Positions 4,226 to 20,492 of a DNA stretch of 64,000 nt are shown piece by piece. The notes beneath the pieces were generated by a model, which worked only from the letters and a program-made list of their open reading frames with translations, was not told where the DNA came from and did no database searches. Each line of letters begins with the position of its first letter. The first letter of the stretch is position 1. Source of the stretch: an uncultured Planktomarina sp. (GTDB lineage: Bacteria; Pseudomonadota; Alphaproteobacteria; Rhodobacterales; Rhodobacteraceae); NCBI GenBank assembly GCA_905182455.1, contig CAJJBJ010000002.1, forward strand, positions 434,001 to 498,000. Direction: 5' to 3'. The position numbers were made by a program, and so were the translations under genes.

Positions 4226-7200
4226 CTAGATATCCAATATCAAAACCCCGTTCTCCTGCAAAGCCCGGCTTTGACAGAGTATAATCGTGGTTTCACGTTG
4301 CGCCGCGGAGAGGACAAAATCACGATGTTCAACTTCGCCTGCAATCACCGTGCATTTGCACACGCCACACAGACCATCTGAGCATTTCACATCTACAGGT
4401 ATCCCCGCCGCAATCAAGGCATCACTGGCGGATTGATCTGCGTTCACCGCAAGCTTTTGACCATTGCTACGCTCAATCTCAAACGGCAGATTAACCCAAT
4501 CTAACATGTCCGGCACTGCGAAAAATTCCGCATGCAACGCTGCATCAGGATAGCCTATGGCGCGGGCATGACCCAAAATTGCGCTCATGTAGGCATCCGG
4601 GCCGCAGACATAGATATGAACGCCCGGCGCGTAGGGCGGAACGGCTACTGCAATATCCAATCGGCTGCCTTGATCAGAGTAGTGCTTGCTGGTTTTTGCG
4701 GCCCAAGGCTGCGCTGCAAAATCACCGTCGAACGCAGCGGAGTCTAGTCTACTGGCCGAATACATCATCTTAAAATCGCGCCCGGCATGGTCCAACTCAT
4801 GGGCAAAGGCAATCATCGGCGTTACACCAATGCCGCCGCCAAACAGCAACGACAGGTTGGACTGCGTTTCAAGACCAAAATGGTTGATTGGTTTGGAGAC
4901 AAATACGCGCCGGCCTTGCTCAAAAATACGGTGCATCAGTTTTGATCCACCGCGTCCTTCCGGCTCAATCAACACCGCAATTTCATAACAACTGCGATCC
5001 GCAGGATCCCCGCACAACGAATATTGCCGCAGAAACTCTGGCGCCACAACGATATCCAAATGCGCCCCTGCGGTCCAAACTGGCAAATCCGCAGCATCAG
5101 CGGCAACCAATCTATATTTCTTCACACCGCCCGCACAGTCCGTGACGCAATCTACAATCATCTGAATGACTGGCGCTTCTTGATCGCTTTGGTACAGGTG
5201 TAAGTGATCCTGTGCGCCGCTAGCAGATTTGGCCTGATACGCCTCAGCGGTGATCATGGCTTGGTAGGCCTCAATACCCGCTTCACGGTCCATTGGGGAT
5301 GGATAGGGATAGGGATGCGGAGCCAAGGGGGCAGGATAAACCGCCAAGGTTTGATCGGCGTATTTGAGATCTAGATCCTTTTGCAGCGCCCGTGCGTTCG
5401 CCACATGTAGGCTAGGCGCATAGGCCCCATCTTCTGTCAGCTCTAGATCCCACCACCACTTTTTCACTGGGTTCAATTCACCGTGACCGACCATATCATC
5501 AAGCTTGGCCAAAACAGGCGCCATCTGCGGCACATTCATCGCAGCCCAACGAAACGGCGCTTCCGAAAACAAGCCCTCAAGGTTCCAAGGACAGGTTTTC
5601 ATGCACCGACCACACATTGCACCACCCGGCGTGTTGATCCGGTAGGTGGCGCATTTTTGACTGTCTGACTTCCAAATTTCATACCCGTTAAACATCAATT
5701 TTGGCCCTGCGGTGATCGCTCCAGACGGGCATTCGCGCGCGCATTTATTGCAGCTGTCACAAAACTTTTGCAGTCCAAAATCAATGGGCTTGTCATGGGC
5801 CATCGGCAGTGATGTGGTCACCGCACCCGATTTCAAACGTGGCCCCAGAAACGGATTTAATATCACCTCACCTATCCGGCTCACCTCCCCCAGTCCAGAC
5901 AGCAGCAACAAGGGCGGTTGCAGCACCTCACCGTCCATCACCGTATGGGCCTTGGCCGAATAGCCCATATTGCGGATATGCTGGGCCAGAATCCCACCGA
6001 ATAGCGAAAACCGCAGATAGGCCCGCATGGATTGCGCCACGCTGATCCAATCATCACCGGAGGCCCCCTCCATCGTTTCGAAGCCTTGATCAACAATCAT
6101 ACTGACCGCATGGTCATGCGGCGGGATGATAGGCGTGCCGCGGGCATCATGAGAATACCAGCTCCACTCCGGGCAGCGCGACAGGCCCGTAGCGTCAATG
6201 CCCATAAAATAACTTGCGCCCTTGATGTTTTCGCCAGCTTTTTCAGGTGAAATCTGTTGCACCTCTTGGGCAGGCTCGCCATCTTGCAACAGCACAAAGG
6301 CCCCCAAAAGTCGCCGTTGCGCGGCGCTCGGGGCGGCTTTTCGAACATAATGGCCGCCCGTCGCGCCTTTTTGCACCTGCGGGCCCATATCGCCAAATTG
6401 CGCGCGTGCAAACATATCGGTGCGTTTTGGCACCCGCGCGATATTGGGCTCATCCATATAGGTGGTTGGAGTTTCCACCCGTTTCAGCGTTTCAAAAGGA
6501 TGCGCGCCGCTCACATAATCGCGTGCCGCATAGGGATCATGATTGCCCCGGCTGGCCCCGCCATGCCGTCCAAAGATCCAGTCTAGGGACTTCAAGGCCG
6601 ATTTGGGCTGAACCGCCGCCAAAGGCTGATCATAGGCCAAGGGCATATCTGTGGTCACGGCAGCCAAACCAAAGCGGCCACCCAGCCATGGATGGGTGAT
6701 ATGATTGCCCTCGACCTCTGCTACGCCCGCTTTGACCGCTAGCCGGGACAGCTCTACATCGCTTGTGGTCGCTGAATGCGCCCGCGCGCTGAAGCCCAAC
6801 ACCCGCAGGTAATTGGCCAGTACAGTTGCAGTTTCCATGCCCAAAACTGCCGCACGTTCAGCCTGCGCATCTTGCACCCAGTCACAGCCAGACTCATCCG
6901 GCCGAGGGTCGCGGCGGTAGTCCACTAAAAACACCAAAGCCCCGGTATGATGGCTAATAGATTCAAGCTTTGCAGCCATGCTTTCCTTGAGATCAGCCAT
7001 AATCATATCAATGCCCGCCGCCAGCGTTTTGGTCTGCCTTGTGCTCAAAGCATAGGCCAACCGCGCCACCTCCGGGTTGAGGCGCGGGGTTGCAAGATGG
7101 TCATCCGCGGCTAGAGCGGTTACCCCCACCATGGCAATGTCGTTGAAATAAGCAAATGCCTTCAGGTGATTGGAGCGCTCTTGCAAATCTGATGGAATTT

Positions 7201-7426
7201 CTGAAACCACCGAGTTTGCACGACCGTCGCGCACCGCATCCATCATGGCTTGAAATTCCGCCATGGCCGGCACGATGCTGCTACTGGCGGTCGGGCGCTG
7301 GAAATCCAACACCGGCCAAGGGACAAGGGCTTTTAGATCTGGGCACACCGAGCTGCGCATGAGCCGTTCTGTGGGAAAGCGGCCCATATGGATGGGGCGG
7401 TTACGATCTGAAAACAGCTTGCTCAT
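4226..7426 (-). CDS. Reductive dehalogenase-like protein fused to a flavin/2Fe-2S reductase
   Basis: About 1066 residues with three parts. Residues about 80-550 contain two divergent copies of the corrinoid-binding nitroreductase-like fold (around 90-270 and 400-550). They are followed by two [4Fe-4S] motifs: CDSCNKCARECP (Cys 556, 559, 562, 566) and a Cys at 592 with CGRCMKTCP (605, 608, 612). From about 745 there is a phthalate-dioxygenase-reductase-like module with RQYSLCGDP (flavin, ~801), GGGIGVTPM (NAD(P)H, ~863) and a plant-type ferredoxin CSDGLCGVC (1015, 1020, 1023, with Cys 1051). This is the architecture of self-sufficient, catabolic RdhA enzymes (BhbA type). No Tat signal or RdhB anchor gene is seen, which suggests a cytoplasmic enzyme. 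ATG 7426 overlaps the xdhC stop as ATGA, with AAGGA ten bases upstream; ATG 7447 is the alternative. The substrate is unknown. Confidence 0.8.
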   Translation of the reverse strand: MSKLFSDRNRPIHMGRFPTERLMRSSVCPDLKALVPWPVLDFQRPTASSSIVPAMAEFQAMMDAVRDGRANSVVSEIPSDLQERSNHLKAFAYFNDIAMVGVTALAADDHLATPRLNPEVARLAYALSTRQTKTLAAGIDMIMADLKESMAAKLESISHHTGALVFLVDYRRDPRPDESGCDWVQDAQAERAAVLGMETATVLANYLRVLGFSARAHSATTSDVELSRLAVKAGVAEVEGNHITHPWLGGRFGLAAVTTDMPLAYDQPLAAVQPKSALKSLDWIFGRHGGASRGNHDPYAARDYVSGAHPFETLKRVETPTTYMDEPNIARVPKRTDMFARAQFGDMGPQVQKGATGGHYVRKAAPSAAQRRLLGAFVLLQDGEPAQEVQQISPEKAGENIKGASYFMGIDATGLSRCPEWSWYSHDARGTPIIPPHDHAVSMIVDQGFETMEGASGDDWISVAQSMRAYLRFSLFGGILAQHIRNMGYSAKAHTVMDGEVLQPPLLLLSGLGEVSRIGEVILNPFLGPRLKSGAVTTSLPMAHDKPIDFGLQKFCDSCNKCARECPSGAITAGPKLMFNGYEIWKSDSQKCATYRINTPGGAMCGRCMKTCPWNLEGLFSEAPFRWAAMNVPQMAPVLAKLDDMVGHGELNPVKKWWWDLELTEDGAYAPSLHVANARALQKDLDLKYADQTLAVYPAPLAPHPYPYPSPMDREAGIEAYQAMITAEAYQAKSASGAQDHLHLYQSDQEAPVIQMIVDCVTDCAGGVKKYRLVAADAADLPVWTAGAHLDIVVAPEFLRQYSLCGDPADRSCYEIAVLIEPEGRGGSKLMHRIFEQGRRVFVSKPINHFGLETQSNLSLLFGGGIGVTPMIAFAHELDHAGRDFKMMYSASRLDSAAFDGDFAAQPWAAKTSKHYSDQGSRLDIAVAVPPYAPGVHIYVCGPDAYMSAILGHARAIGYPDAALHAEFFAVPDMLDWVNLPFEIERSNGQKLAVNADQSASDALIAAGIPVDVKCSDGLCGVCKCTVIAGEVEHRDFVLSAAQRETTIILCQSRALQENGVLILDI

Positions 7427-8394
7427 GGGGATGGCATCCTTAGGCATTGGGTGATGGCCGCTAGAATAGACAGGGCAATCTCTGCCGGAGACTTACTGCC
7501 GATGGACAATCCTACCGGTCCTTGGATGCGGTCGAATTGGGCCGCACTCACCCCCAAGTCCAACATAGATGCCCGGCGCTTGGCATGTGTGCGCGTCGAG
7601 CCCAGTGCCCCTATATAAAAAGCCTCGGTCGCAAGCACAGCTTGCAAGGACGGCGTGTCCATTTTTGGATCATGGGTCAGGGTCACCAAAGCCGTGCGAT
7701 TGTCGATGGCGAGACCAGCCAAAGCATCCTCGGGCCAATCCACGATCAGCTCTTGATCTGGAAACCTTTGAGGGCTGGCGAAGGATTCGCGTGGGTCAAT
7801 GATGGTGACCTGATAGCCCGCAAGTTGCGCCATTGGCGCCAAAAACTGTGCAATATGCACCGCCCCCACCACGACCAAACGCAAATGTGGGTTTTGAATA
7901 TGAGTGTAAACCTGCTCTGAGACACCGCCCAGACCAGTGAAGTCCTGCGAATGGGTTTGTGGCGCGATCACAGCCCGCGCCCAAGTTTGCAAATTGACCT
8001 GAAGTCCTAGCCCTTGGCGATCGGTGTAAGCCTGCGCCAAAGCCTCCAGCGCTTCCACTGCGACCCCCTGCCCAAAGCCAACAGGCTCAACCATGATCTT
8101 GATCGTGCCACCACAGGCCAGCCCCACAGCGAAAGCATCCACATCATTCACACCGTATTCCAGCACCTTACAGGTGCCATCAGCCAAAACCTCCAGCGCC
8201 TCAAGCACCACGGCCCCCTCAACGCAGCCACCAGAGACAGAGCCATGAAAAGAGCCATCTTCACAGACCACCAATTGCGCCCCCACCGGACGGGGCGACG
8301 AGCCCCATGTGCTCAAAACCGTGGCCAGAGCCACCTTTTGCCCTTTGCGGTGCAGCGAGGCTGCAAGCCCACCTATATGCTGTGACACCTTCAT
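7423..8394 (-). CDS. XdhC/CoxF-family molybdenum cofactor maturation protein
   Basis: 323 residues. XdhC/CoxI-family proteins help sulfurate and insert the molybdenum cofactor into xanthine-dehydrogenase/CO-dehydrogenase-type enzymes. The N-terminal domain carries ATVLSTWGSSPRPVGAQL and GSVSGGCVEGAVV, both family hallmarks. The C-terminal half has a Rossmann-like LVVVGAVHIAQFLAPMAQLAGY, with Ala and Val where many members have a stricter G-x-G-x-x-A pattern, and ends with GLSIGSKSPAEIALSILAAI. It overlaps coxE by four bases upstream and the reductase fusion downstream (ATGA), so it sits inside a translationally coupled operon and probably services the CoxL of this cluster. Confidence 0.88.
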   Translation of the reverse strand: MKVSQHIGGLAASLHRKGQKVALATVLSTWGSSPRPVGAQLVVCEDGSFHGSVSGGCVEGAVVLEALEVLADGTCKVLEYGVNDVDAFAVGLACGGTIKIMVEPVGFGQGVAVEALEALAQAYTDRQGLGLQVNLQTWARAVIAPQTHSQDFTGLGGVSEQVYTHIQNPHLRLVVVGAVHIAQFLAPMAQLAGYQVTIIDPRESFASPQRFPDQELIVDWPEDALAGLAIDNRTALVTLTHDPKMDTPSLQAVLATEAFYIGALGSTRTHAKRRASMLDLGVSAAQFDRIQGPVGLSIGSKSPAEIALSILAAITQCLRMPSP

Positions 8395-9611
8395 TTTAAC
8401 AGTCCCATCACTCTGGTTTTATGATCCGCGCGCAAACCATTTCTCAGACCATCGGATAATTCCTGCAGACTGTCCAGATTATGACAGGCCACAAAGGACG
8501 ACACATGCGGCAACATCGCGCGAATGCCAGCGGCTTGTGGCGAAAACTGATCCCATCGCAGCAGCGGATTAAGCCAAATCAGCTCACGGGTTTGCAGCGC
8601 CAATCGGGAGATTTCTGCCTCCAATTGCGTAATGGCCTCACGCTCCAACCCGTCGGTGATCAACAGCACTACCGACGGGGTTGAGAGCACCCGTCGTGCC
8701 CAATGCCGGTTAAACTCCCCAAGGCTCGTGGCGATGCGCGTGCCGCCTTCCCAGTCGCGCACGTGACTGCCAATGGCCGTCAGTGCGGCATCCGGGTCTT
8801 TGATGGTCAACAAAGGTGATATATTATGCAGACGCGTACCAAAGGTGAAACTGTGCACCTCGGCCCAAGATTGCCCCTGAGCCTGCGCCATGGAATGCAC
8901 AAAATGCATCATCATGCGGCTGTAACGGGTCATGGAGCCTGAAATATCACACAGCACCACAAGGTTGAGCCGCCGTGGTTTGGCGCGTTGTTTGGGCAGT
9001 TGCATCATTTCACCACCACTTCGCCGGGCACTTTGTAGGGCTTTGCGGCGATCAATTTGCACCGTATTTGCAGCCTGCGCATACCGACGCCCAAGCACTT
9101 TGGGCAGATCAAGCCCCATGCTGCGAATGGCAATTTTAGCTGCACGGATTTCTGCGGCGGTCATGGCGTCGAAATCTTTCTGGGTGAGCTTTTCCATATT
9201 GGAATGCGAAAACTGCGCGTCGACTTCCAATTGCTCTTTCGGGGGCGCTTGGCGGGGATTGCCCCCCCCGGCCGCCATCGCCTCAGCCGCCCGGTTTTGT
9301 GCCGGCTTCAAGGGGCGATCAATTGGCGGCGCGGTGATCACAGGCAAGAGATTGGTGATCATATTTTCCAAAAACTCAGGGTCACGCCAAAACATGGCAA
9401 ACACTTGATCAAAAATTAAAAGATGCTCAGCACGGGTCACAATCATTGCGCGCAGGGTGGTGTGAAAATCACGGCGATTGGTAAAACCCACCGTCTGTAC
9501 CGCGCGCAAGGCCTCAAGAATTTGCGCTGTGCCCACTGGAACCCCTGCCCGCCTTAGAGCACGCACAAAATAAACAATATTATCCGGCAGCCTTCCGGCG
9601 GTTGGTGTCAT
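8391..9611 (-). CDS. coxE: VWA-domain protein CoxE
   Basis: 406-residue CoxE-family protein. An N-terminal helical region precedes a von Willebrand A domain with the MIDAS motif DISGS at 222-226 (LCDISGSMTRYS), then TFGTRL and ITDGLERE further on. CoxE works with the MoxR-type ATPase CoxD in post-translational assembly of the Mo/Cu or Mo site of CO-dehydrogenase-type hydroxylases in characterised systems. It overlaps coxD by four bases (ATGA) and xdhC likewise, giving the fixed order coxD-coxE-coxF. Confidence 0.88.
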   Translation of the reverse strand: MTPTAGRLPDNIVYFVRALRRAGVPVGTAQILEALRAVQTVGFTNRRDFHTTLRAMIVTRAEHLLIFDQVFAMFWRDPEFLENMITNLLPVITAPPIDRPLKPAQNRAAEAMAAGGGNPRQAPPKEQLEVDAQFSHSNMEKLTQKDFDAMTAAEIRAAKIAIRSMGLDLPKVLGRRYAQAANTVQIDRRKALQSARRSGGEMMQLPKQRAKPRRLNLVVLCDISGSMTRYSRMMMHFVHSMAQAQGQSWAEVHSFTFGTRLHNISPLLTIKDPDAALTAIGSHVRDWEGGTRIATSLGEFNRHWARRVLSTPSVVLLITDGLEREAITQLEAEISRLALQTRELIWLNPLLRWDQFSPQAAGIRAMLPHVSSFVACHNLDSLQELSDGLRNGLRADHKTRVMGLLK

Positions 9612-10510
9612 TGCAGCGCCTGCATGTCCTGTTTTATCTGGTCCAAGATACGTGTAGCCGCCCCACCGGTGATCTTGGCAATGTCATCTTGATATTTCAG
9701 CACCGCTCCAATCGTGTCGGTGATCACATCAGGTGACAGCGCCACAACGTCCAGCGCCACGAGGCATTTGGCCCAATCCAGCGTTTCCGACAAGCCAGGA
9801 CGTTTGAACAAATCTTCCTCACGGAGCTTTTGAATAAAACAAACCACCTCAAGGCTCAGGGCCTGTTTGGCCTCTGGCACGCGGGCCGCCAAAATCTCCA
9901 TCTCGCGGTCAAAATCGGGATAATCCACCCAATGATATAAACACCGCCGCTTCAGGGCATCATGCACTTCACGGGTGCGGTTGGAAGTGAGAATCACGAT
10001 GGGCGGCTTTTGGGCTTTAATCACACCAAGTTCTGGCACGGTGACTTGAAAATCAGAGAGTGCTTCCAACAAAAACGCTTCAAACGGCGCATCTGCGCGG
10101 TCAATTTCATCAATCAGCAGGACCGGTGGGCCCAAAGCATGTAGCTCCACCGCTTGCAGCAAGGCCCGTTTTATTAGATATTTCTCTGCATAGATATCCG
10201 CCTCGCCTGCGCCGTTGCGCATGGCCAGCATTTGCGCGGCAAAATTCCATTCATACACCGACGTCGCCGTGTCCAGCCCTTCATAGCATTGCAGCCGTAT
10301 CAGATTGCGCCCCAGCCCTTTGGCGATGACCTTGGCCAGTTCGGTTTTGCCAACACCGGCCTCGCCCTCCAAGAACATTGGACGATTAAGCGTCAGAGAC
10401 AAAAAGGTGAGCGTCGCCAGTGACCGATCTGCCACATAGCCCTCAGAGGCCAGCAGATCCGAAGTTTCTTGAATCGATTTGGGCAGCTGTTTCACGGTAT
10501 CAATCCCCAA
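9608..10510 (-). CDS. coxD: MoxR-family AAA+ ATPase CoxD
   Basis: 300-residue MoxR-type AAA+ ATPase with Walker A GEAGVGKT at 49-56, Walker B VLLIDEIDRAD near 130, sensor-1 ILTSNRTRE, and the arginine-finger region RRCLYHWVDYPDFDRE. CoxD is described as a chaperone that partly unfolds apo-CoxL so the active site can be completed. It overlaps coxE by four bases. A 53-base spacer holding a strong inverted repeat separates it from coxM upstream. Confidence 0.88.
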   Translation of the reverse strand: MGIDTVKQLPKSIQETSDLLASEGYVADRSLATLTFLSLTLNRPMFLEGEAGVGKTELAKVIAKGLGRNLIRLQCYEGLDTATSVYEWNFAAQMLAMRNGAGEADIYAEKYLIKRALLQAVELHALGPPVLLIDEIDRADAPFEAFLLEALSDFQVTVPELGVIKAQKPPIVILTSNRTREVHDALKRRCLYHWVDYPDFDREMEILAARVPEAKQALSLEVVCFIQKLREEDLFKRPGLSETLDWAKCLVALDVVALSPDVITDTIGAVLKYQDDIAKITGGAATRILDQIKQDMQALQ

Positions 10511-10518
10511 ATAAGGAA

Positions 10519-10545
10519 CACCAGCCCAAAATTTTGGAGCTGGTG
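10519..10545 (-). repeat. Near-perfect inverted repeat between coxM and coxD
   Basis: A 27-base palindrome, CACCAGCCCAAAA followed by TTTTGGAGCTGGTG: 13 bases pair with 13 bases around a single unpaired A and there is no loop. It sits in the coxM-coxD spacer. No T-run follows on the minus strand, so it is not a standard terminator. It could be an mRNA processing or stabiliser hairpin that sets the ratio of structural (SLM) to maturation (DEF) products, or a protein site. Confidence 0.5.
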
Positions 10546-10563
10546 CACGGTGTTTATCGCAGT

Positions 10564-11391
10564 TTATGCCAAAGCGCGTTTGGCCATGACCTTGATCAAG
10601 TTAGCTCGATAGGCGGCAGTCCCATGAAGATCCGACATCAGCCCATCCGCAGAGACCTCAACCGCATCCACCGCAGAGGCAGACCAATCCGCAGACAGAG
10701 CCGCTTCCAGTCCCGCGTGACGGTACACACCGTTATCGCCCGCACCCGTAACCGAAACCCGCACCTCGCCGTCAACGGATTTGGCTACAAACACGCCGGC
10801 CATGGCATAGCGAGACGCCGGGTTCGGGAATTTGCCATAGCCACCCACTACAGGGGCTTGGAAGCTCACGGCTGTGATGATTTCCATATCATCGAGGGCC
10901 GTCAGGAACATGCCTTTAAAGTAATCCTCAGCGGCGATGTCTCGACTGTTGGTATGGATTGTGGCCCCCAGAGCCAGCAAGGCGGCAGGATAATCCGCAG
11001 CAGGGTCATTATTGGCCACAGATCCGCCAATGGTGCCGCGATGGCGCACCGCAGGATCGCCAATATTACCGGCCAACCCACAAATTACAGGGCAAACTTG
11101 CGCCAGCTCCGTGTTGCCTGCCACTTCGGCATGGGTGGTCATAGCGCCGATGGTGATTGTCTCGCCACCATCCGCTTTCATGATACCCATCTTTTTACGC
11201 TTGGTGATGGTCACACCGCGCAGGGCCTCGGCCCGGCTCAGATCGACTAGATCCGCAGGTGCTGCCAGTCTTTGCTTCATCGTGGGAATCAATGTCTGAC
11301 CACCCGCCAAGATTTTGCCATCGTCTGATTTGGCTAAGAGTGCTGCCGCGTCTTGCGCCGTGGAAGCTTTATGAAAATTGGTCTCATACAT
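10564..11391 (-). CDS. coxM: Medium subunit, FAD-binding, of form II CO-dehydrogenase-type molybdenum hydroxylase
   Basis: 275-residue FAD-binding subunit that passes electrons from the 2Fe-2S subunit to FAD. The FAD motifs of this family are visible: AGGQTLIPTMKQRL near residue 31 and TIGGSVANNDPAADYPAALLAL near 100. The protein has the PF00941 domain plus the C-terminal CO-dehydrogenase flavoprotein domain and the usual length of about 270-290. It lies directly after coxL (12-base spacer), so the order is S-L-M, which marks form II clusters; form I is M-S-L. Confidence 0.9.
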   Translation of the reverse strand: MYETNFHKASTAQDAAALLAKSDDGKILAGGQTLIPTMKQRLAAPADLVDLSRAEALRGVTITKRKKMGIMKADGGETITIGAMTTHAEVAGNTELAQVCPVICGLAGNIGDPAVRHRGTIGGSVANNDPAADYPAALLALGATIHTNSRDIAAEDYFKGMFLTALDDMEIITAVSFQAPVVGGYGKFPNPASRYAMAGVFVAKSVDGEVRVSVTGAGDNGVYRHAGLEAALSADWSASAVDAVEVSADGLMSDLHGTAAYRANLIKVMAKRALA

Positions 11392-11403
11392 CGTCCAAAC
11401 TCC

Positions 11404-13764
11404 TTATTCAGCTGCTAATTTGCTGCGCACATCCTGCAAAGCGGTCCAAACCGCAGCAGGGGTGGCAGGCATAGAAAGGTTGTTGTTGCCAATGGCATCT
11501 GTGATCGCATTGATCACCGCTGGCGGCGAGCCAATGGCCCCCGCCTCTCCGCATCCCTTCATGCCAAGCGGGTTGCCTGGGCATGTGGTGGACGCGTGAT
11601 GCACTGAGTAATTGGGCAAGTCATCGGCCCGTGGCATGGTGTAATCCATATAGCTGGCCGACAATTGTTGACCCGCATCATCATAGACCACATTTTCAAG
11701 CATCGCTTGGCCAATGCCCTGTGCGATGCCCCCGTGCACCTGACCTTCCACAATCATCGGGTTGATGATGGTGCCAAAGTCATCTGAGGCCACAAATTGC
11801 ACAACCTCGGTGACGCCCGTGTCTGGATCCACTTCAACTTCACAAATGTAACATCCTGCCGGGAAGGTGAAGTTCGTTGGGTCGTAGAAGGCGCTTTCTT
11901 TTAGGCCCGGCTCCATTCCCGCAGGAATATTATGTGCGGTATAAGCGGCCAGTCCCACCTCATGCCAGAGCATTTGCTTGTCGGTGCCCGCCACTTTCAC
12001 AGCGCCGCCTTCAATCACGATATCATCCTCGCCCGCTTCCAAAACATGCGCTGCGATTTTCTTGACCTTGGCTTCCACCTTATCCATCGCTTTAACGATG
12101 GCGGACATGCCGACGGCCCCTGAACGCGATCCATAGGTGCCCATGCCGAATTGTACCTTATCAGTATCGCCATGCACAATTTGGATGTTCTCAGTTGGAA
12201 GACCAAAGCGCTCTGCCACAATTTGAGCAAATGTGGTTTCATGGCCCTGACCATGGCTATGAGAGCCAGTGAGAATCTCAATTGTACCCACCGGGTTCAC
12301 CCGCACTTCGGCACTTTCCCAAAGACCCACGCCTGCACCCAAGCTGCCAACGGCCGCTGAAGGGGCGATGCCGCACGCCTCGATATAGTTGGAATAGCCC
12401 AAGCCACGCAGTTTGCCACGGCTGGCCGCCTCCGCCTTGCGTGCAGCAAAGCCCGCCACATCAGCCGCATCTTGCGCTTGCTTTTGGTTGGCCGCGAAGT
12501 CACCGCTGTCATAGGCCATAATCACTGGCGTTTGATGAGGAAATGACGTCACAAAGTTTTTCGCACGCAGCTCGGAAGGGTCCATACCCATTTCACGTGC
12601 AGCGGTTTCCATCAGCCGCTCAATCACATAGCAAGCCTCAGGCCGCCCCGCGCCGCGATATGCATCAACCGGAACGGTGTTGGTATAAACCGCCTGAACA
12701 TTACAGTAGATATTAGCAATATTATACTGACCCGACAGCAATGTTGCATAAAGATAGGTCGGAACAGCCGAGCTGAACAGAGACATGTAGGCGCCAAGAT
12801 TGGCCTTGGTATCCACCTTCAAACCCACGATCATACCGTCTTTGTCAAACCCAATTTTCGCAGTCGAGACATGATCGCGACCATGGGCATCGGTCAAGAA
12901 GGCTTCTGTGCGATCGGATGTCCATTTTATCGAGCGTCCAGATTTCATCGCCGCCCATAGGCAGGCAATTTCTTCGGGGTAGATATAGATTTTTGATCCA
13001 AACCCACCGCCCACATCCGGTGCAATGACCCGCAATTTATGCTCAGGTGCCACGTTGTAAAACGCAGAAAGCACCAAACGCGCCACATGCGGATTTTGGC
13101 TGGTGGTGTAGAGCGTGTAATGATCTTCCGCCTCGTTGAAGGTGGCTATTGCAGACCGTGGTTCCATTGGATTTGGCGCCAATCGATTGTTGGTGATGTC
13201 CATTTCCGTCACATGAGCCGCAGTGGCCAGTGCCGCATCTGTTGGGGCCAGATCACCGATTTCCCAATCGAAAATCAGATTGCCCGGTGCATTGTCATGC
13301 AGCTGCGGCGCGCCTTTGGCCAAAGCCTGCACCGATCCCACCACAACAGGCAGCTCTTCATAAGTCACAACCACAGCCTCGGCGGCCAATTTGGCGATAG
13401 ACTTGCTATCGGCGACCACAATGGCCACAGCATCCCCCACATAGCGCACTTTATCAGTGGCCAAAGCGGACCATGCTCCCATGTTCATTGCACTGCCGTC
13501 TTTTGAGGTAACACCCCAACCGCAAATGATATTACCAATTCCATCGGCAACCAGTTCAGGCCCCATCAGCACAGTCTCAACACCCTCTATTGCCATGGCA
13601 GCGGAGGTATCTATGGCAATGATACGCGCATGGGCATGCGGGCTGCGCACAAAGGCAGCATAGGCTTGATTGGCCTCAACGATATCGTCGGTGTACCTGC
13701 CTTTGCCAGTGATGAATCTTTTGTCTTCCTTGCGTAAGACGCGGGCTCCAATTCCTTCGGACAT
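11404..13764 (-). CDS. coxL: Large Mo subunit, form II (AYRGAGR) CoxL-like hydroxylase
   Basis: About 786 residues; the molybdopterin-cytosine-dinucleotide subunit of an aerobic carbon-monoxide-dehydrogenase-like hydroxylase. The active-site loop reads AYRGAGR (residues 370-376 counted from ATG 13770; bases 12643-12663), which is form II. Form I, the proven CO oxidiser, has AYxCSFR with a Cu-binding Cys that is absent here. Other motifs are PDVGGGFGSK, GSHSHGQGHETTFAQI and, late in the protein, GCGEAGAIGSPPAVINAI (catalytic Glu region). ATG 13764 lies seven bases after a G-rich Shine-Dalgarno tract and is preferred over ATG 13770. The physiological substrate of form II enzymes is generally uncertain. 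Confidence 0.92.
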   Translation of the reverse strand: MSEGIGARVLRKEDKRFITGKGRYTDDIVEANQAYAAFVRSPHAHARIIAIDTSAAMAIEGVETVLMGPELVADGIGNIICGWGVTSKDGSAMNMGAWSALATDKVRYVGDAVAIVVADSKSIAKLAAEAVVVTYEELPVVVGSVQALAKGAPQLHDNAPGNLIFDWEIGDLAPTDAALATAAHVTEMDITNNRLAPNPMEPRSAIATFNEAEDHYTLYTTSQNPHVARLVLSAFYNVAPEHKLRVIAPDVGGGFGSKIYIYPEEIACLWAAMKSGRSIKWTSDRTEAFLTDAHGRDHVSTAKIGFDKDGMIVGLKVDTKANLGAYMSLFSSAVPTYLYATLLSGQYNIANIYCNVQAVYTNTVPVDAYRGAGRPEACYVIERLMETAAREMGMDPSELRAKNFVTSFPHQTPVIMAYDSGDFAANQKQAQDAADVAGFAARKAEAASRGKLRGLGYSNYIEACGIAPSAAVGSLGAGVGLWESAEVRVNPVGTIEILTGSHSHGQGHETTFAQIVAERFGLPTENIQIVHGDTDKVQFGMGTYGSRSGAVGMSAIVKAMDKVEAKVKKIAAHVLEAGEDDIVIEGGAVKVAGTDKQMLWHEVGLAAYTAHNIPAGMEPGLKESAFYDPTNFTFPAGCYICEVEVDPDTGVTEVVQFVASDDFGTIINPMIVEGQVHGGIAQGIGQAMLENVVYDDAGQQLSASYMDYTMPRADDLPNYSVHHASTTCPGNPLGMKGCGEAGAIGSPPAVINAITDAIGNNNLSMPATPAAVWTALQDVRSKLAAE

Positions 13765-13776
13765 ATTCATTCCCCC

Positions 13777-14259
13777 CTATACAGTCGTCATCTTGGACGC
13801 ACCGTCCGCGATGGATTTCACAATATTGTGGTAGCCCGTGCAGCGGCAAATATTGCCTTCTAGCTCATGGCGAATGGCGTCTTCGGTAATCTCTTTGCCC
13901 TGAGCCTGATAGCGCGCCACCATATCGGTCGCGGTCATGATCATCCCGGGGGTGCAGAACCCACATTGCAGGCCGTGGTTTTCTTTGAACGCCACCTGCA
14001 TCGGATGCAGATCATCTTTGGATTTGGCGAGCCCTTCCACCGTGGTCACAGCCGCGCCTTCAGCACTGGCGGCCAGCATGGTGCAAGATTTTATCGCTTG
14101 ACCGTCCACATGCACAACACAGGCGCCGCATTGGCTGGTGTCACAGCCCACATGGGTCCCGGTCAATCGTAGATGGTCTCGTATGTATTCAACAAGCAAA
14201 GTGTTGTCAGACACCTCACGGGATACAGATTTCCCGTTTACAATCATCGCTATCTTCAT
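13777..14259 (-). CDS. coxS: Small 2x[2Fe-2S] subunit of the form II hydroxylase
   Basis: 160-residue iron-sulfur subunit. The N-terminal plant-type cluster is [10 protein letters not shown] plus a downstream Cys (KSCTML). The C-terminal all-alpha cluster is CGFCTPGMI ... [13 protein letters not shown]. Both are complete, so the subunit should be functional. It is six bases upstream of coxL and is the second gene of the operon after coxG. A second in-frame Met at codon 5 is an alternative start. Confidence 0.92.
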
Positions 14260-14279
14260 TTGTTTTCTCCCTAGTCATA

Positions 14280-14795
14280 TTATTTTTTGAACACGCGTAA
14301 AATTCGTTGCCAAAGCCCAATTGTTTGCACCGGTACTTCAGCCTCGGTTGATATTGAGCCTTCCACTTGAGCTTGGAAGGTTTGAAAAAACTGATCCGCC
14401 ATTTGACTGACAAAACTGTCAATGATCCTCGAGCCCAGCTGTGCCAGCTTCCCGCCAATTTGTGCCGTAACGGCATAAGTAAGTTTGGTTCCGGCTCCAT
14501 CAGCCTCAAGCGTGACATTGGCGCCACCGCGGGCAAATCCCGCGACGCCGCCTTCGCCTTTGCCGCTGATGCGCAGACTGTGAGGGGCGGTGAGCTCGCT
14601 CAGCTGAACCGTACCTTTAAACGTGGCTTTCACCGGCCCTACCTTTTGCACCACCGTGGCCTCAAACCCGTCTTCGACGCTACCTGTCAGGCTTTGACAC
14701 CCCGGCACACATTCTTTCAAGACGGCTGGGTCGAGCAAATGCATCCAGACTTTTTGAGGCGGGGCCGCAATTATGCGGTTGTCTTTAAAATCCAA
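14280..14795 (-). CDS. coxG: CoxG-type SRPBCC protein
   Basis: 171 residues of the CoxG/SRPBCC (START-like) family: opening [20 protein letters not shown], then [11 protein letters not shown], and a [19 protein letters not shown] core. CoxG proteins are found in cox operons and have been linked to membrane attachment of the enzyme or handling of its electron carrier. The start is TTG at 14795, supported by GGAGG eight bases upstream. As the first gene of the SLM-DEF operon it probably marks the promoter-proximal end; an AT-rich dyad lies about 50 bases upstream. Confidence 0.85.
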
Positions 14796-15000: not shown

Positions 15001-15888
15001 TCAAACGTCATCCAATCCATTTTGGTCGCGCAACTCGAGATATAACGCAGAGTGATCCAGCTCGGCGCCGTCAAGCTCAGTCACCAAACGTTGGAACCGG
15101 TCACGGGTGTTAATCAGGGTTGGCAGGATCAGCCCAAAGCTTTCAGCCTCTGACACCGCGTTGTTCAAGTCTTTCAGCTGCAATGTGCACAATCCGCCCG
15201 GCGTGAAATCTCCCGTGGTCATACGTGCGCCGTGCAGTTGCAAAATGGTGCTATCCGCAAAACCACCCTTGAGCGCAGCCCGCACCGCAGCCGGATCCGC
15301 ACCACCGTTTTGCAGCATCAACATCGCTTCGGCCACCGCAGCAATGGTGATACCAACAATGGCTTGGTTGGCCAATTTCGCCAATTGCCCTGCGCCCACC
15401 GGACCCACATGCACAGGTCGCCCCATCGCGCTTAACGCTGCTGTCACGGTCGCGAACTCTTCCGCCGCACCGCCCGCCATAATGGCAAGGCTGGCCTCTT
15501 CGGCGCCTTTAGTTCCGCCAGACACAGGCGCATCCACGTAGTGCACACCCAATTCCTCAAGGCTCAATGCTGCCGCCCGGGCCTCCTCAGGTTTGATAGA
15601 GCCCATCTCAACCCAAATGGCTCCGCCCCGCAGGGCCGCGCGCAACTCAGGGTCAGATTGCACCAACACGCCAGTTGGACCGTCTGACAGCATTGAGATG
15701 ACAATATCTGTGCCAGCAACAGCCTCAGCCGCCGTTTTCGCGACATTAGCACCAAAGGCCGCAAGCGGCTGTGCCTTGGCGATTGTGCGGTTCCAGACGG
15801 TCGTGTGCATACCAGCTTGGCAAAGATTGCGCGCCATCGGCGCGCCCATCAATCCGGTGCCCAGCAGAGCTATTTTTTGTACAGACAT
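15001..15888 (-). CDS. NAD(P)-dependent 3-hydroxyisobutyrate dehydrogenase/GarR-family reductase
   Basis: 295 residues of the beta-hydroxyacid dehydrogenase family. Motifs in order are the Rossmann loop LLGTGLMGAPMARNL, the substrate loop DAPVSGGTKGAEEASLAIM near residue 120, and the catalytic-Lys region GAGQLAKLANQ near 170. Family members oxidise 3-hydroxyisobutyrate or reduce tartronate semialdehyde. The start MSVQKIALLG (15888) fits the family; the longer frame to 15966 adds 26 unlikely residues. It is divergent from the sugar-acid cluster, 286 bases away, which suggests, but does not prove, a shared role. Confidence 0.85.
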   Translation of the reverse strand: MSVQKIALLGTGLMGAPMARNLCQAGMHTTVWNRTIAKAQPLAAFGANVAKTAAEAVAGTDIVISMLSDGPTGVLVQSDPELRAALRGGAIWVEMGSIKPEEARAAALSLEELGVHYVDAPVSGGTKGAEEASLAIMAGGAAEEFATVTAALSAMGRPVHVGPVGAGQLAKLANQAIVGITIAAVAEAMLMLQNGGADPAAVRAALKGGFADSTILQLHGARMTTGDFTPGGLCTLQLKDLNNAVSEAESFGLILPTLINTRDRFQRLVTELDGAELDHSALYLELRDQNGLDDV

Positions 15889-16174
15889 GACTTTAAAACC
15901 CTTATTGAAGCGCGGGATGCGTCCCCTAAGATATCTTTTGATACTGAGGCACTGGAAATGCAACACTCGATATCTCTCGATTAGTCATCCTGCGCCCACC
16001 CACAAAGTCACGATTGGCCTATCTGAGGCAGGACAAATCGCACCGCCCGCAAGTATCTACAAGACACAGGCGAGTTTTGCTTTAACCCAAGCCAGAAATG
16101 CGTATAAATTGGCGCAACTTACAGCCCTTGCCTAAGCTTGCGGCTCACTGTCTTGGTATTGAAAAGGATTAAAC

Positions 16175-16915
16175 ATGGGACGACTTTCTGGAAAACGCGC
16201 TTTGGTCACTGCCGCAGGCCAAGGCATTGGCCGGGCCACAGCTTTGGCAATGGCCGCAGAAGGCGCACATGTTTTCGCCACCGACATCAACCCCGACACT
16301 TTAGCCGAGGTGCAAAGCGCCTGCATTGGCCAGCTGGAGACCTATGTGCTCGACGTCTTAGACGCACAGTCTGTCACCGCAGGCGTCGCGCGGGCCAACC
16401 CTGACATTTTGTTCAACGGTGCGGGCTTTGTGCATCACGGCAGTATTTTGGAAGCCCAAGACGTCGATTGGGATTTTGCGCTTAACCTCAATGTCCGTTC
16501 TATGCTGCGCACTATTCAAGCAGCCCTCCCCGGCATGCTGGACCGTGGCACCGGCTCGATCATCAATATGTCCTCGGCCTGCTCTTCAGTGATTGGTGCG
16601 CCGAACCGCTTTATCTATGGCACCACCAAAGCCGCGGTAATTGGTCTGACCAAATCCGTAGCCATTGATTACATAAGTCAAGGGATCCGGTGTAACGCTA
16701 TTTGCCCCGGCACGATCGAAAGCCCTTCCCTGCACGACAGATTGCGCGCCACGGGAGATGAAGTTCAAGCTATGAAAGACTTCACCGCCCGCCAACCCAT
16801 GGGCCGCATCGGAACCGCCGAAGAAATCGCAGCCCTTGCGGTTTACCTGGGATCAGACGAGAGTGCCTTCACCACTGCCACAACTCAGGTGATAGACGGC
16901 GGCTGGTCCAACTGA
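16175..16915 (+). CDS. Short-chain dehydrogenase, probable 2-keto-3-deoxy-sugar-acid dehydrogenase
   Basis: 246-residue classical SDR with cofactor motif TAAGQGIGRA, an NGAG-type strand (FNGAGFVHHGSI), catalytic Ser region NMSSACSSV and YGTTKAAV (Tyr-x3-Lys). It most resembles the BDH2/2-keto-3-deoxy-L-fuconate (or L-rhamnonate) 4-dehydrogenase group. AAGGA lies six bases before ATG 16175. The next two genes, a dehydratase and an FAH-family hydrolase, are the other two partners of the known non-phosphorylating L-fucose/L-rhamnose diketo route, which supports that assignment. The exact sugar is an inference. Confidence 0.8.
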   Translation: MGRLSGKRALVTAAGQGIGRATALAMAAEGAHVFATDINPDTLAEVQSACIGQLETYVLDVLDAQSVTAGVARANPDILFNGAGFVHHGSILEAQDVDWDFALNLNVRSMLRTIQAALPGMLDRGTGSIINMSSACSSVIGAPNRFIYGTTKAAVIGLTKSVAIDYISQGIRCNAICPGTIESPSLHDRLRATGDEVQAMKDFTARQPMGRIGTAEEIAALAVYLGSDESAFTTATTQVIDGGWSN

Positions 16916-16957
16916 TAAACACTGAAAACAAATTAGAACTTTACGAGGGCCATACAC

Positions 16958-18745
16958 TTGTCAAATAATAAATCAAAATTACGATCCCAACTGTGGTTCA
17001 ACAATCCCGACAATCAAGAAATGACGGCTCTCTATCTGGAGCGTTATCTCAATTATGGCCTAACCCGGAACGAGCTACAATCGGGCAAGCCAATCATCGG
17101 CATCGCACAAACTGGCAGTGATCTAAGCCCCTGTAACCGCCACCACATCGAGCTGACCAAACGGGTCCGCGACGGGGTGATTGCGGCAGGCGGCACAGTG
17201 ATTGAGATCCCAGTGCACCCCATCCAAGAAACCGGCAAGCGCCCCACGGCTATGCTGGACCGCAATTTGGCTTATCTTTCGCTGGTCGAAACCCTATTTG
17301 GCTACCCAATTGACGGCGTTGTGCTGAACATCGGCTGTGACAAAACCACCCCAGCCCTGTTGATGGCAGCCGCCACAGTGAATATTCCAGCAATCGCTTT
17401 ATCCGTTGGCCCCATGCTCAACGGCTGGTTTCGCGGCAAACGCACCGGCTCAGGAACCATCGTTTGGAAGGCCCGCGAAATGCAAGCTGCTGGCGAGATT
17501 GATGATGATGGCTTTATGGAGATGGTGGCCTCTTCCACCCCTTCAGTCGGCTATTGCAACACCATGGGCACAGCTACCACCATGAACTCCCTCGCAGAGG
17601 GTTTGGGCATGCAATTACCCGGTGCCGCCGCCATTCCCGCGCCATACCGTGAAAGGGGTCAAATCAGCTACGAAACTGGATTGCGTATCGTTGATATGGT
17701 GCGTGAGGATTTGCGCCCCAACGCCATTATGACCCGGGAAGCATTTGAAAATGCGGTTGTGATTAACTCCGCGATTGGCGGTTCTACCAATGCGCCAATC
17801 CATCTCAACGGCATAGCCAAACATTTGGGCGTATCTTTGAACAATGACGACTGGCAAACCCTCGGCCATGACGTGCCATTGCTGGTGAATTTGCAGCCTG
17901 CTGGTGAATATCTCGGCGAAGATTACCATAGAGCGGGCGGCGTGCCGGCGGTGATCGGTGAATTATTGGCAGCTGGCCTGTTGCCACACCCCAAAGCAAT
18001 GACAGCCAATGGCAAAACCATCGCGGAAAACTGTGCGCACCTGCGCAGCGAGAACCATGACGTGATCAAACCGGTCTCTACGCCACTTTTACAAACAGCT
18101 GGGTTTATCAATCTCAAGGGCAATCTGTTTGATAGCGCAATTATGAAAACATCCGTAATTTCACCCGAATTCCGCGACCGCTATCTGTCCAACCCCGACA
18201 GCCCCAATGCCTTCGAAGGCCGGGCCGTGGTCTTTGAAGGACCGGAAGATTTTCACAGGACAATCGATGACGAAAGTCTGAACATTGACGCCAATTGCGT
18301 GTTAATCATGCGTGGCGCCGGGCCGATCGGCTATCCAGGTGGCGCGGAAGTTGTGAACATGCGCCCACCGTCCTATCTGCTCACGCAAGGTATCACATCA
18401 CTGCCCTGCTTAGGTGACGGGCGCCAGTCGGGCACCTCCGGCTCCCCCTCCATCCTCAACGCCTCGCCTGAGGCTGCCGATGGTGGCGGACTTGGCTTGG
18501 TGAAAACCGGCGACACCATTCGCATTGATTTGAACGCGTGCACAGTTGATATGTTGGTGAATCCCGCCGAATTGGACCGCCGGCGTGCCGCACTTGGCCC
18601 ACGCCCCTTCACACCGGACAGTCAAACCCCTTGGCAAGAGCTGTTTCGTGAGAAGGTCCAGCCCTTCTCCGAAGGCATGACCCTTGAAGGGGCCCATAAA
18701 TATCAAGACATCGCACGCAAACATATGCCACGCGACAATCACTAG
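16958..18745 (+). CDS. IlvD/Edd-family sugar-acid dehydratase (xylonate/arabonate type)
   Basis: 595 residues, the length of pentonate dehydratases and about 30 longer than IlvD. It dehydrates an aldonic acid to a 2-keto-3-deoxy acid using an Fe-S cluster and Mg. Cluster and metal motifs: [78 protein letters not shown]. From memory it closely parallels the Caulobacter xylonate dehydratase, including the PRxNH C-terminus. The start is TTG 16958, with GAGGG about nine bases upstream; no closer ATG keeps the conserved N-terminus. It could accept xylonate, arabonate or a 6-deoxy acid. Confidence 0.85.
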
Positions 18746-18754
18746 GAGTTTGAA

Positions 18755-19603
18755 ATGAAATTGGTTCGCTATGGCAATGAGGGCGCAGAGCGTCCCGGGT
18801 TGATCGATGCAAACGGGGTCCTGCGCGACTTATCTGCGCATATTTCAGATATCGACGGGAGCATGCTCAACGACGCGGCGCTCGAGCGTTTGCGCGCCTT
18901 GGACACCGAAGCCCTACCCGCAGTAGACGGCTCCCCACGCTTTGCCCCTGTTGTGGGAAATATCGGGAAGTTCCTATGCATCGGCCTGAACTATTCGGAT
19001 CACGCAGCAGAAACTGGCGCGGCGATCCCCGAGCATCCAATTTTATTTTTTAAAGCCAATTCAGCCATCGTTGGAGCCAATGATGATGTGATCATGCCCC
19101 GCGGCTCCACCCATACGGATTGGGAGGTTGAGCTGGGCGTGGTCATCGGCACCACTGCTAAATATGTCTCCGAACAAGAGGCCCTGTCGCATGTGGCCGG
19201 TTATTGTATCGTCAATGACGTCTCCGAGAGGCATTTCCAAACCCAGCTGACCGGTCAATGGACCAAGGGCAAAAGCTGCGACACCTTCGGCCCCACCGGC
19301 CCATTTTTGGTGACCCGCGACGAGGTCCCAGATCCGCAAGCGTTGGATATGTCTCTCGATGTGAACGGAAAGCGCATGCAAACCGGCAATACCTCCACGA
19401 TGATTTTCAGCGTGGCACAAATCATCAGTCATCTGTCTCAGCTCATGACATTGCACCCGGGCGATATCATCACCACAGGCACGCCTCCCGGTGTTGGCAT
19501 GGGGATCAAGCCAGATCCGGTCTACCTCAAATCCGGTGACGTCATGGAGTTGCACATTTCCGGCCTCGGCCAGCAACGCCAAACTGTCGGGCAAGACGCC
19601 TAG
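18755..19603 (+). CDS. Fumarylacetoacetate hydrolase-family diketo-acid hydrolase
   Basis: 282 residues. The FAH fold starts near residue 70 (KFLCIGLNYSDHAAETGA), with metal ligands in DWEVELGVVIG and NDVSERHFQ, and the late GDIITTGTPPGVGMG loop. The N-terminal 60 residues (MKLVRYGNEGAERPGLID) match the subgroup containing 2,4-diketo-3-deoxy-L-fuconate/rhamnonate hydrolases, which split the diketo acid to pyruvate plus lactate. AGGAG lies six bases before ATG 18755, ten bases after the dehydratase stop. With the SDR and dehydratase it forms a plausible three-step route. Confidence 0.85.
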   Translation: MKLVRYGNEGAERPGLIDANGVLRDLSAHISDIDGSMLNDAALERLRALDTEALPAVDGSPRFAPVVGNIGKFLCIGLNYSDHAAETGAAIPEHPILFFKANSAIVGANDDVIMPRGSTHTDWEVELGVVIGTTAKYVSEQEALSHVAGYCIVNDVSERHFQTQLTGQWTKGKSCDTFGPTGPFLVTRDEVPDPQALDMSLDVNGKRMQTGNTSTMIFSVAQIISHLSQLMTLHPGDIITTGTPPGVGMGIKPDPVYLKSGDVMELHISGLGQQRQTVGQDA

Positions 19604-19667
19604 TGCGCCACGGCCTGCCTTCCATACATTTGTCACCATTCCCCGCGGCACTTTGAAAGGACCCTAC

Positions 19668-20492
19668 ATGGCCAACCTTCTGCGCAAAGCAACAGCATTG
19701 ACCGGCAAATGCCACGACATCACCGCTGAGGACGCAGATTGGGGCTACGTTGGGTTTGGCCTTTATAAGCTGGCCGCAGGCGAAAGCGTGACGGAGGCCA
19801 CAGGCGACCGGGAAGTCATTTTGGTTCTGGTCGAAGGCAAAGCCGAGATCACCGCTGCGGGACATGATTTTGGGGAAATGGGCGAGCGCATGTCAGTGTT
19901 TGAACGCCTACCCCCCCATTGCCTCTATGTGCCCAATGATCAAAACTGGCAGGCCACAGCCACCACAGAATGCACCTTGGCCATCTGCACCGCGCCTGGC
20001 AAAGGGGGCCACAGCGCGCAGCGGCTTGGTCCTGCGGGCATCACCCTCACCCCACGCGGCAAAGGCCAAAACACCCGTTTTATAAATAATATAGCAATGG
20101 AAGATCGCGACGTGGCCGACAGTCTGCTCGTCACAGAGGTCTTCACGCCCGCAGGCAATTGGTCCAGCTACCCCAGCCACCGGCACGATGAAGACACCTA
20201 TCCTGATATGACCTATCTTGAGGAAACCTATTATCACCGCCTCAACCCCGCTCAAGGCTTCGCAGTGCAAAGGGTCTACACGGAAGATGGGTCGCTCGAT
20301 GAAACTATGTCCGCGGCTGATGGTGATGTGGTCTTGGTGCCCAAGGGCCACCACCCCTGCGCCGCCCCCTATGGCTATGACCTTTACTACCTCAACGTGA
20401 TGGCCGGGCCCCTGCGTAAATGGCGCTTCAAAAACGATCCCGCCCATGATTGGATTGCGCAACGCGATGCAGATGCTACCACCACAGGCTAA
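19668..20492 (+). CDS. iolB: 5-deoxy-glucuronate isomerase family (IolB/KduI fold)
   Basis: 274-residue double cupin of the IolB family, which isomerises 5-deoxy-D-glucuronate in myo-inositol catabolism. Metal and fold motifs: WSSYPSHRHDEDT, LEETYYHRLNPAQGFAVQRV, LVPKGHHPCAAPYGYDLYYL and LNVMAGPLRKW. The start ATG 19668 (MANLLRKATAL) fits the family, and AAAGGACC lies upstream. No iolC, iolD, iolE or iolG is in the window, so its presence 64 bases after the FAH hydrolase is unusual; it may act on a related deoxy-uronate in this pathway (inference). Confidence 0.85.
   Translation: MANLLRKATALTGKCHDITAEDADWGYVGFGLYKLAAGESVTEATGDREVILVLVEGKAEITAAGHDFGEMGERMSVFERLPPHCLYVPNDQNWQATATTECTLAICTAPGKGGHSAQRLGPAGITLTPRGKGQNTRFINNIAMEDRDVADSLLVTEVFTPAGNWSSYPSHRHDEDTYPDMTYLEETYYHRLNPAQGFAVQRVYTEDGSLDETMSAADGDVVLVPKGHHPCAAPYGYDLYYLNVMAGPLRKWRFKNDPAHDWIAQRDADATTTG

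Follow-up and report, generated by a model that had tools for sequence, protein, structure and literature searches.

The cox operon in a 64,000-nucleotide stretch of DNA from an uncultured Planktomarina sp. (assembly GCA_905182455.1, contig CAJJBJ010000002.1, positions 434,001 to 498,000; hereafter the window) ends with a gene, rdhA, whose 1066-residue product has the architecture of a reductive dehalogenase (RdhA) fused to a reductase. Judged by its sequence, it is an apparently intact fusion of the BhbA/JtRdhA type, and the gene probably encodes an enzyme that debrominates phenolic compounds at the expense of NAD(P)H, and was probably inserted behind xdhC and kept there for co-expression, not for a pathway shared with the Mo-hydroxylase encoded upstream. 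The window sits on the second contig of an assembly of 2.12 Mb that is 96% complete; in the following, genomes and loci are numbered G and L, respectively.

The RdhA fusion and its closest known enzymes

RdhA (positions 4226-7426, minus strand) scores 196.4 bits in a profile search with TIGR02486, above the cut-off of 160.35; two stretches of the protein match this profile, with 161.9 and 39.6 bits, the latter below the cut-off, as expected of a duplicated corrinoid-type domain. The first ~740 residues are covered by a match to NpRdhA (PDB 4ras; E 1e-149), with residues 111-158 falling between two aligned stretches in this comparison with NpRdhA; the C-terminal remainder matches P450-fused and phthalate dioxygenase reductases (2pia, E 1e-42; Fer2, 37.6 bits). 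The two [4Fe-4S] sites are formed by Cys 556/559/562/566 and 592/605/608/612, the 2Fe-2S ligands are Cys 1015/1020/1023/1051, and an RxYS motif occupies residues 800-803. A motif search of residues 1-60 for the twin-arginine translocation (TAT) signal [ST]RRx[FL][LVI] returned no match. Regarding its start, the mechanical open reading frame extends to 7447, and the start at 7426, which gives 1066 residues, is the one that aligns with the homologues. The fusion of ~1066 residues, with duplicated corrinoid-type domains, two [4Fe-4S] sites and a C-terminal flavin/NAD(P)H/2Fe-2S reductase, that an earlier note had read from the DNA alone is thus found in all its parts.

As for the active site, the substrate hydroxyl in NpRdhA is bound by K488, R552, and S422, while Y426 is positioned as the proton donor (PMC7565698). 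NpRdhA F291, S422, M423, Y426, K488, and R552 correspond to F339, S466, M467, Y470, K532, and R596 of the window RdhA; these six residues do not vary among 36 aligned fusions (the window RdhA and 35 from named genomes, 61-91% identity), nor do the eight 4Fe-4S and the four 2Fe-2S cysteines, so that the loss of catalytic residues, named in the earlier note as a refutation, was not seen. The protein is under constraint, with ratios of nonsynonymous to synonymous divergence (dN/dS) of 0.05-0.09 in four RdhA pairs, rough figures because three of these pairs have a dS above 1.

An AlphaFold model built from 36 alignment rows (mean predicted local distance difference test, pLDDT, 67.4; predicted template modelling score 0.59) resembles NpRdhA in its fold (Foldseek E 3e-43, template modelling score by query 0.47; VIA Z 24.2, root-mean-square deviation 3.6 over 452 residues of 4ras_B), and its reductase part matches the reductase 6kbh (Z 35.5, deviation 2.5, 312 residues aligned) and 2pia (Z 30.2, deviation 7.2, 313 residues aligned). 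The model backs the fold only and not the pocket geometry, because the active-site stretches are of low confidence; the Tyr/Lys pair, for which a structural comparison with NpRdhA had been suggested, is kept by alignment.

Full-length matches, covering at least 80% of the query, occur on 8 of 72,556 plasmid records, one of which is pBHB from Comamonas sp. 7D-2. The pBHB protein (WP_015585978) is a full-length fusion, 48.6-49% identical to the window RdhA and with the same six active-site residues, and from the names of the strain and the plasmid we take it to be the published bhbA product. Its gene follows ligA and the genes of a class III dioxygenase and a transport protein, and the plasmid is classed as conjugative; the window rdhA, by contrast, is coupled to xdhC. 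The published bhbA converts 3,5-dibromo-4-hydroxybenzoate into 4-hydroxybenzoate (PMC13101508). JtRdhA, from Jhaorihella thermophila, catalyzes the NADPH-dependent aerobic debromination of phenolics, acting on bromo- and iodophenols, while chlorinated compounds merely inhibit it; by its published description it shares with the window enzyme the absence of a TAT signal, a duplicated cobalamin domain, two [4Fe-4S] sites, the fused phthalate dioxygenase reductase, and the equivalents of Y426, K488, and R552 (PMC10463259). NpRdhA, from Nitratireductor pacificus (PDB 4ras, 6zxx), is like the window enzyme in its RdhA part and active-site residues, and differs in that the solved chain has no fused reductase and that its F290 and A419 are Met and Val in the window protein. 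With the active-site residues kept and a full-length likeness to the pBHB protein, the BhbA-type design proposed earlier is supported.

By analogy with NpRdhA and JtRdhA, we infer that the window RdhA would act as a cytoplasmic, self-sufficient reductive dehalogenase, in which electrons would pass from NAD(P)H to the flavin of the reductase domain, then to its 2Fe-2S cluster and through the two 4Fe-4S clusters to a base-off cobalamin. The phenol hydroxyl would be held by Ser466, Lys532, and Arg596, with the halogen on the cobalt and Tyr470 as the proton donor, and a bromo- (or iodo-) phenolic compound would lose its halide. In the genus members that have both PobA and PcaGH, a 4-hydroxybenzoate-like product could then be taken up by these enzymes.

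The cox operon and the position of rdhA

The eight genes of the locus lie on the minus strand in the order that the earlier note had given, and all were identified by family match: CoxG (14280-14795), CoxS with two 2Fe-2S domains (13777-14259), CoxL (11404-13770), the FAD subunit CoxM (10564-11391), the MadB-like AAA ATPase CoxD (9608-10510), CoxE with a VWA_CoxE domain (8391-9611), the XdhC-family Mo-cofactor maturation protein (7423-8394), and RdhA. The stop of xdhC (TGA) and the start of rdhA (ATG) share an ATGA overlap of 4 nt, and AAGGA precedes the ATG by 10 nt, so both sequence features of the proposed translational coupling are present; by their coordinates, CoxD/CoxE and CoxE/XdhC likewise overlap by 4 nt. 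CoxL is of form II, with the order S-L-M and the motif AYRGAGR, which occurs in the CoxL of 28 of the 30 loci scanned; it has neither the AYxCSFR motif nor the M-S-L order of a form I carbon monoxide dehydrogenase, and its score with TIGR02416 (638.7 bits) is below the curated cut-off of 991. Form II cox genes are reported in Planktomarina species C2-C8 (PMC10675870), and the role of these enzymes is stated to be unclear (PMC13203968; PMC6794299).

The locus was compared across 20 genomes of the Planktomarina-like genus and 41 other genomes of the family. RdhA fusions occur in 18 of the 20 genus genomes and, at full length, in 14 of the 41 others; the type linked to XdhC (at least 77% identity) is found in 11 genus genomes, and XdhC adjoins it in 10; in the remaining genome the locus is interrupted where the contig stops. 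The full cox block precedes XdhC-RdhA in four genomes (the window's own, G005, G017, and G018), so the adjacency is not confined to one strain, which the earlier note would have counted against it, while five genomes (G001, G002, G004, G006, and G011) have GarR-XdhC-RdhA without cox. Contig ends cut two loci, in G003 inside RdhA and in G015 beyond XdhC; the adjacency in G006 is read from L216, whose contig breaks off within RdhA, and no CoxL was found in this genome, which is 80% complete. XdhC and RdhA overlap by 4 nt in the cox-linked group and by 8 nt in the cox-less group; the exception is L124 (G015), where the XdhC stop lies 2 nt before the RdhA start and the XdhC match holds one stop. 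In G009 (L215) the same locus has XdhC, which lies beside Glk, as well as CoxM and part of CoxS, and no CoxL between CoxM and CoxS, nor CoxD, CoxE, or RdhA. Two frames are broken, the CoxL of G005 into three pieces and the RdhA of G018 into two, possibly by assembly errors.

In four of the sister genomes lacking cox at the rdhA locus (G001, G002, G004, and G011), CoxL (94% identical) is located elsewhere together with S, M, D, and E (L199-L202). The distance from RdhA to CoxL is 876 kb in G011, a single contig, and 789 kb in G004, and neither CoxG nor XdhC matches were found beside these moved blocks. In a tree, eight XdhC-linked RdhAs form a single clade (support 100), and nine other RdhAs of the genus are scattered among Roseobacter sequences with at least five changes needed, which suggests several transfers.

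Besides the RdhA loci of the window lineage, 16 CoxL loci were compared, five from genus members (L199-L203) and 11 from beyond the genus (L204-L214). Six of the latter, from six other families (L207, L209, L210, L212, L213, and L214), have the order S-L-M-D-E-XdhC, as in the window, with CoxG upstream in four; in L214, M and D are ~4 kb apart. The likeness extends to gene content, and the difference lies in what follows XdhC: a MobA-like gene in all six (cut by the end of the stretch in L214; NTP_transf_3 at 120-139 bits in the three scanned with Pfam) and RdhA in the window. Conversely, no RdhA was present in the 11 CoxL loci outside the genus, and 37 RdhA loci yielded no MobA-like match. 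The gene order suggests a single insertion of rdhA directly behind xdhC, in the slot held by the MobA-like gene in the operons of other families, after which the coupled gene would share the expression of a form II Mo-hydroxylase that is otherwise a neighbour with its own substrate.

Genes of sugar-acid catabolic type flank the locus on both sides (1162-1932 and 15001-20492), including an HpaI/GarL-like aldolase, a GarR-like reductase, a short-chain dehydrogenase/reductase, an IlvD/Edd-type dehydratase, a fumarylacetoacetate hydrolase-family protein, and IolB, several of them below curated cut-offs. The moved cox S-L-M-D-E blocks (L199-L202, from G011, G004, G002, and G001, respectively) are directly followed by an IolB-type gene, and the IolB homologue of the window (19659-20492) is ~5 kb from its cox operon. 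A tie between cox and these flanking genes was considered: the genes stay in the sister genomes while cox leaves, but IolB does adjoin the moved cox, so that some tie may exist.

Alternative explanations for the pairing

The earlier note had proposed that a single operon may join the Mo-hydroxylase and RdhA in one pathway, for example of hydroxylation plus dehalogenation; the two enzymes would then transform the same halo-aromatic compound one after the other. The contiguous, overlapping genes of the four genomes with the full block agree with this, as does the fact that all but one of the 11 genus genomes with the XdhC-linked RdhA type carry this CoxL; still, the gene-order comparison makes it very improbable. 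Each partner occurs alone: all 11 CoxL loci outside the genus have a cox set without RdhA, and 8 of the 18 genus genomes with an RdhA fusion have no CoxL at E 1e-200, although some of these absences may be gaps because the genomes are 67-98% complete. In four sister genomes, as described above, cox and RdhA are unlinked. Among the 41 family genomes CoxL was found in 11 of the 14 with RdhA and in 19 of the 27 others (Fisher p 0.72), or in 1 of 14 and 2 of 27 at CoxL identities of at least 70%, most CoxL in this count being 55-59% identical and not close orthologues; co-occurrence, which shows no enrichment, was thus dropped as evidence for a link. Genes of the xanthine oxidase (XO) family do lie near RdhA in eight other loci (L132, L137, L148, L157, L179, L183, L052, and L060), but they are merely 27-43% identical to CoxL. 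Four of these (L137, L148, L179, and L183, from Ruegeria and Silicibacter) hold a same-strand M-S-L set ~100-200 bp downstream of RdhA; the subunits of these sets are 27-41% identical to those of the window, and the L subunit of L137 fits best with the 4-hydroxybenzoyl-CoA reductase model, at a score far below the cut-off. Such neighbours were judged, without a formal test, to be near chance. Lone CoxG-like genes (59-61% identity to the window CoxG) were also seen ~3-6 kb from RdhA in L135, L152, and L178, with no other cox matches at these loci.

Another reading makes XdhC and RdhA the functional unit, with XdhC serving RdhA in folding or cofactor handling and cox as a passenger. It would explain why the stop and start overlap in 9 of 10 loci, with XdhC 63-100% identical, also where cox is gone; however, at 6 of the 11 CoxL loci from beyond the genus XdhC is the final gene of the operon, and it was matched (E 1e-8) near none of the 73 named RdhA loci outside the lineage (L126-L198) within the available flanks of up to 10 kb, shorter at contig ends. 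The survey of recurrence proposed in the earlier note thus had a divided outcome, with the pairing recurring in the genus and not at these 73 loci. Where cox moved, a single close XdhC was found, which may therefore still serve Cox in trans, and we regard the XdhC-RdhA unit as unlikely. A recruitment of the RdhA part to a non-dehalogenating corrinoid reduction, the alternative offered by the earlier note, could draw on the long stem branch and two pocket substitutions; set against the six retained active-site residues, the purifying selection, and the full-length BhbA similarity, its probability is very low, and nothing that was seen suggests such a role. Lastly, RdhA may have taken the slot of a Mo-cofactor gene since form II Cox and RdhA cooperate on a debrominated or brominated aromatic compound, with the sister genomes keeping the pathway unlinked; this we hold to be most unlikely, and, if true, it would give form II CoxL its first assigned substrate class.

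Several observations weigh against the preferred reading of a debrominase kept behind xdhC for co-expression. The nearest CoxLs of the same family (L204, L205, and L206, 73-81% identity) lack the gene order of the window: L204, where the contig is short, has D-E-S-L-M, L205 has D-E-G-S-L-M with a divergent upstream XdhC at 30% identity and a weak MobA-like match, and L206 has G-S-L-M only; outside this group, L208 has CoxL only and L211 has G-S-L-M up to near the contig end. The window order thus agrees with that of other families and not with that of the nearest kin; we infer that it is the older one, and the disagreement with the nearest kin slightly lowers confidence in the preferred reading. 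That XdhC stayed with RdhA after cox moved might be taken as a sign of a functional tie. A long stem branch (0.44 changes per site) leads to the XdhC-linked clade and, with the replacement of NpRdhA Phe290 and Ala419 by Met338 and Val463, means that the substrate range may differ; the model has pLDDT below 50 in the active-site stretches 448-463, 495-530, 548-599, and 602-620. Moreover, one of six chosen aromatic-catabolism seed genes, two of them loosely aromatic, was found in 12 of 80 named RdhA loci, the seeds' own loci included. In the window's assembly, the best PobA match scores 25 bits, far short of the cut-off of 538.7, and neither homogentisate dioxygenase nor a LigB family match was found, in searches that each probed a single family.

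Metabolic context and implications

Where aromatic-catabolism genes do adjoin RdhA fusions, they give support but not a rule, as this holds for a minority of loci: in L128 the fusion is immediately preceded by PobA (677 bits, with the cut-off at 539), HpaE is near the fusion in L126 with HpaH ~0.3 kb upstream, HmgA is near it in L132, L150, and L159, and a second case of PobA, on the other strand, is seen in L197. The window's own genome holds two adjacent intradiol dioxygenase genes (PF00775), by eye PcaH and PcaG, with a PcaC-like gene alongside. Within the genus, PobA is over the cut-off in 11 of the 20 genomes, in one case with six internal stops, and just below it in four more, so the debromination product may be usable in much of the genus. 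A CobN match over the cut-off, with one internal TAA, is also present (G000:C10:51174-54860).

The window's genome encodes a second RdhA of 409 residues (third contig, C3:233730-234959; L006:7731-8960), with 177.6 bits to TIGR02486; the gene that follows it resembles pirin by eye. This short RdhA has a single match at E 1e-60 in Roseobacter sp. MED193, with 71% identity, and in the MED193 protein, which starts with MSWPQN, the two cluster motifs begin at residues 283 and 337. The same positions are printed for Ros_A3X954, which was shown to turn 2,6-dibromophenol into 2-bromophenol (PMC13101508), so that the MED193 relative fits this tested debrominase, as far as the sequence features go. Matches to the short RdhA occur in 12 of the 19 other genus genomes, six of them with an internal stop, and in 11 of the 20 the short type is matched alongside the fusion.

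The literature searched yielded no paper reporting a reductive dehalogenase from Planktomarina, and a single paper contains both words, Planktomarina and dehalogenase, each once. The strings halogen and bromin occur neither in the main text of PMC10675870 nor in PMC12661815, and an XdhC-RdhA pairing did not appear among the titles and abstract openings listed.

In conclusion, RdhA of the window is a known kind of enzyme in an unusual genomic place, kept in one genus, and its position shows that genes can overlap closely without serving a common pathway. The finding would place B12-dependent debrominases in a Planktomarina-like genus, Planktomarina being described as one of the major Roseobacter lineages in oceans from temperate to polar latitudes (PMC10675870), and the presence of both RdhA types in more than half of its genomes makes bromophenol turnover there testable.

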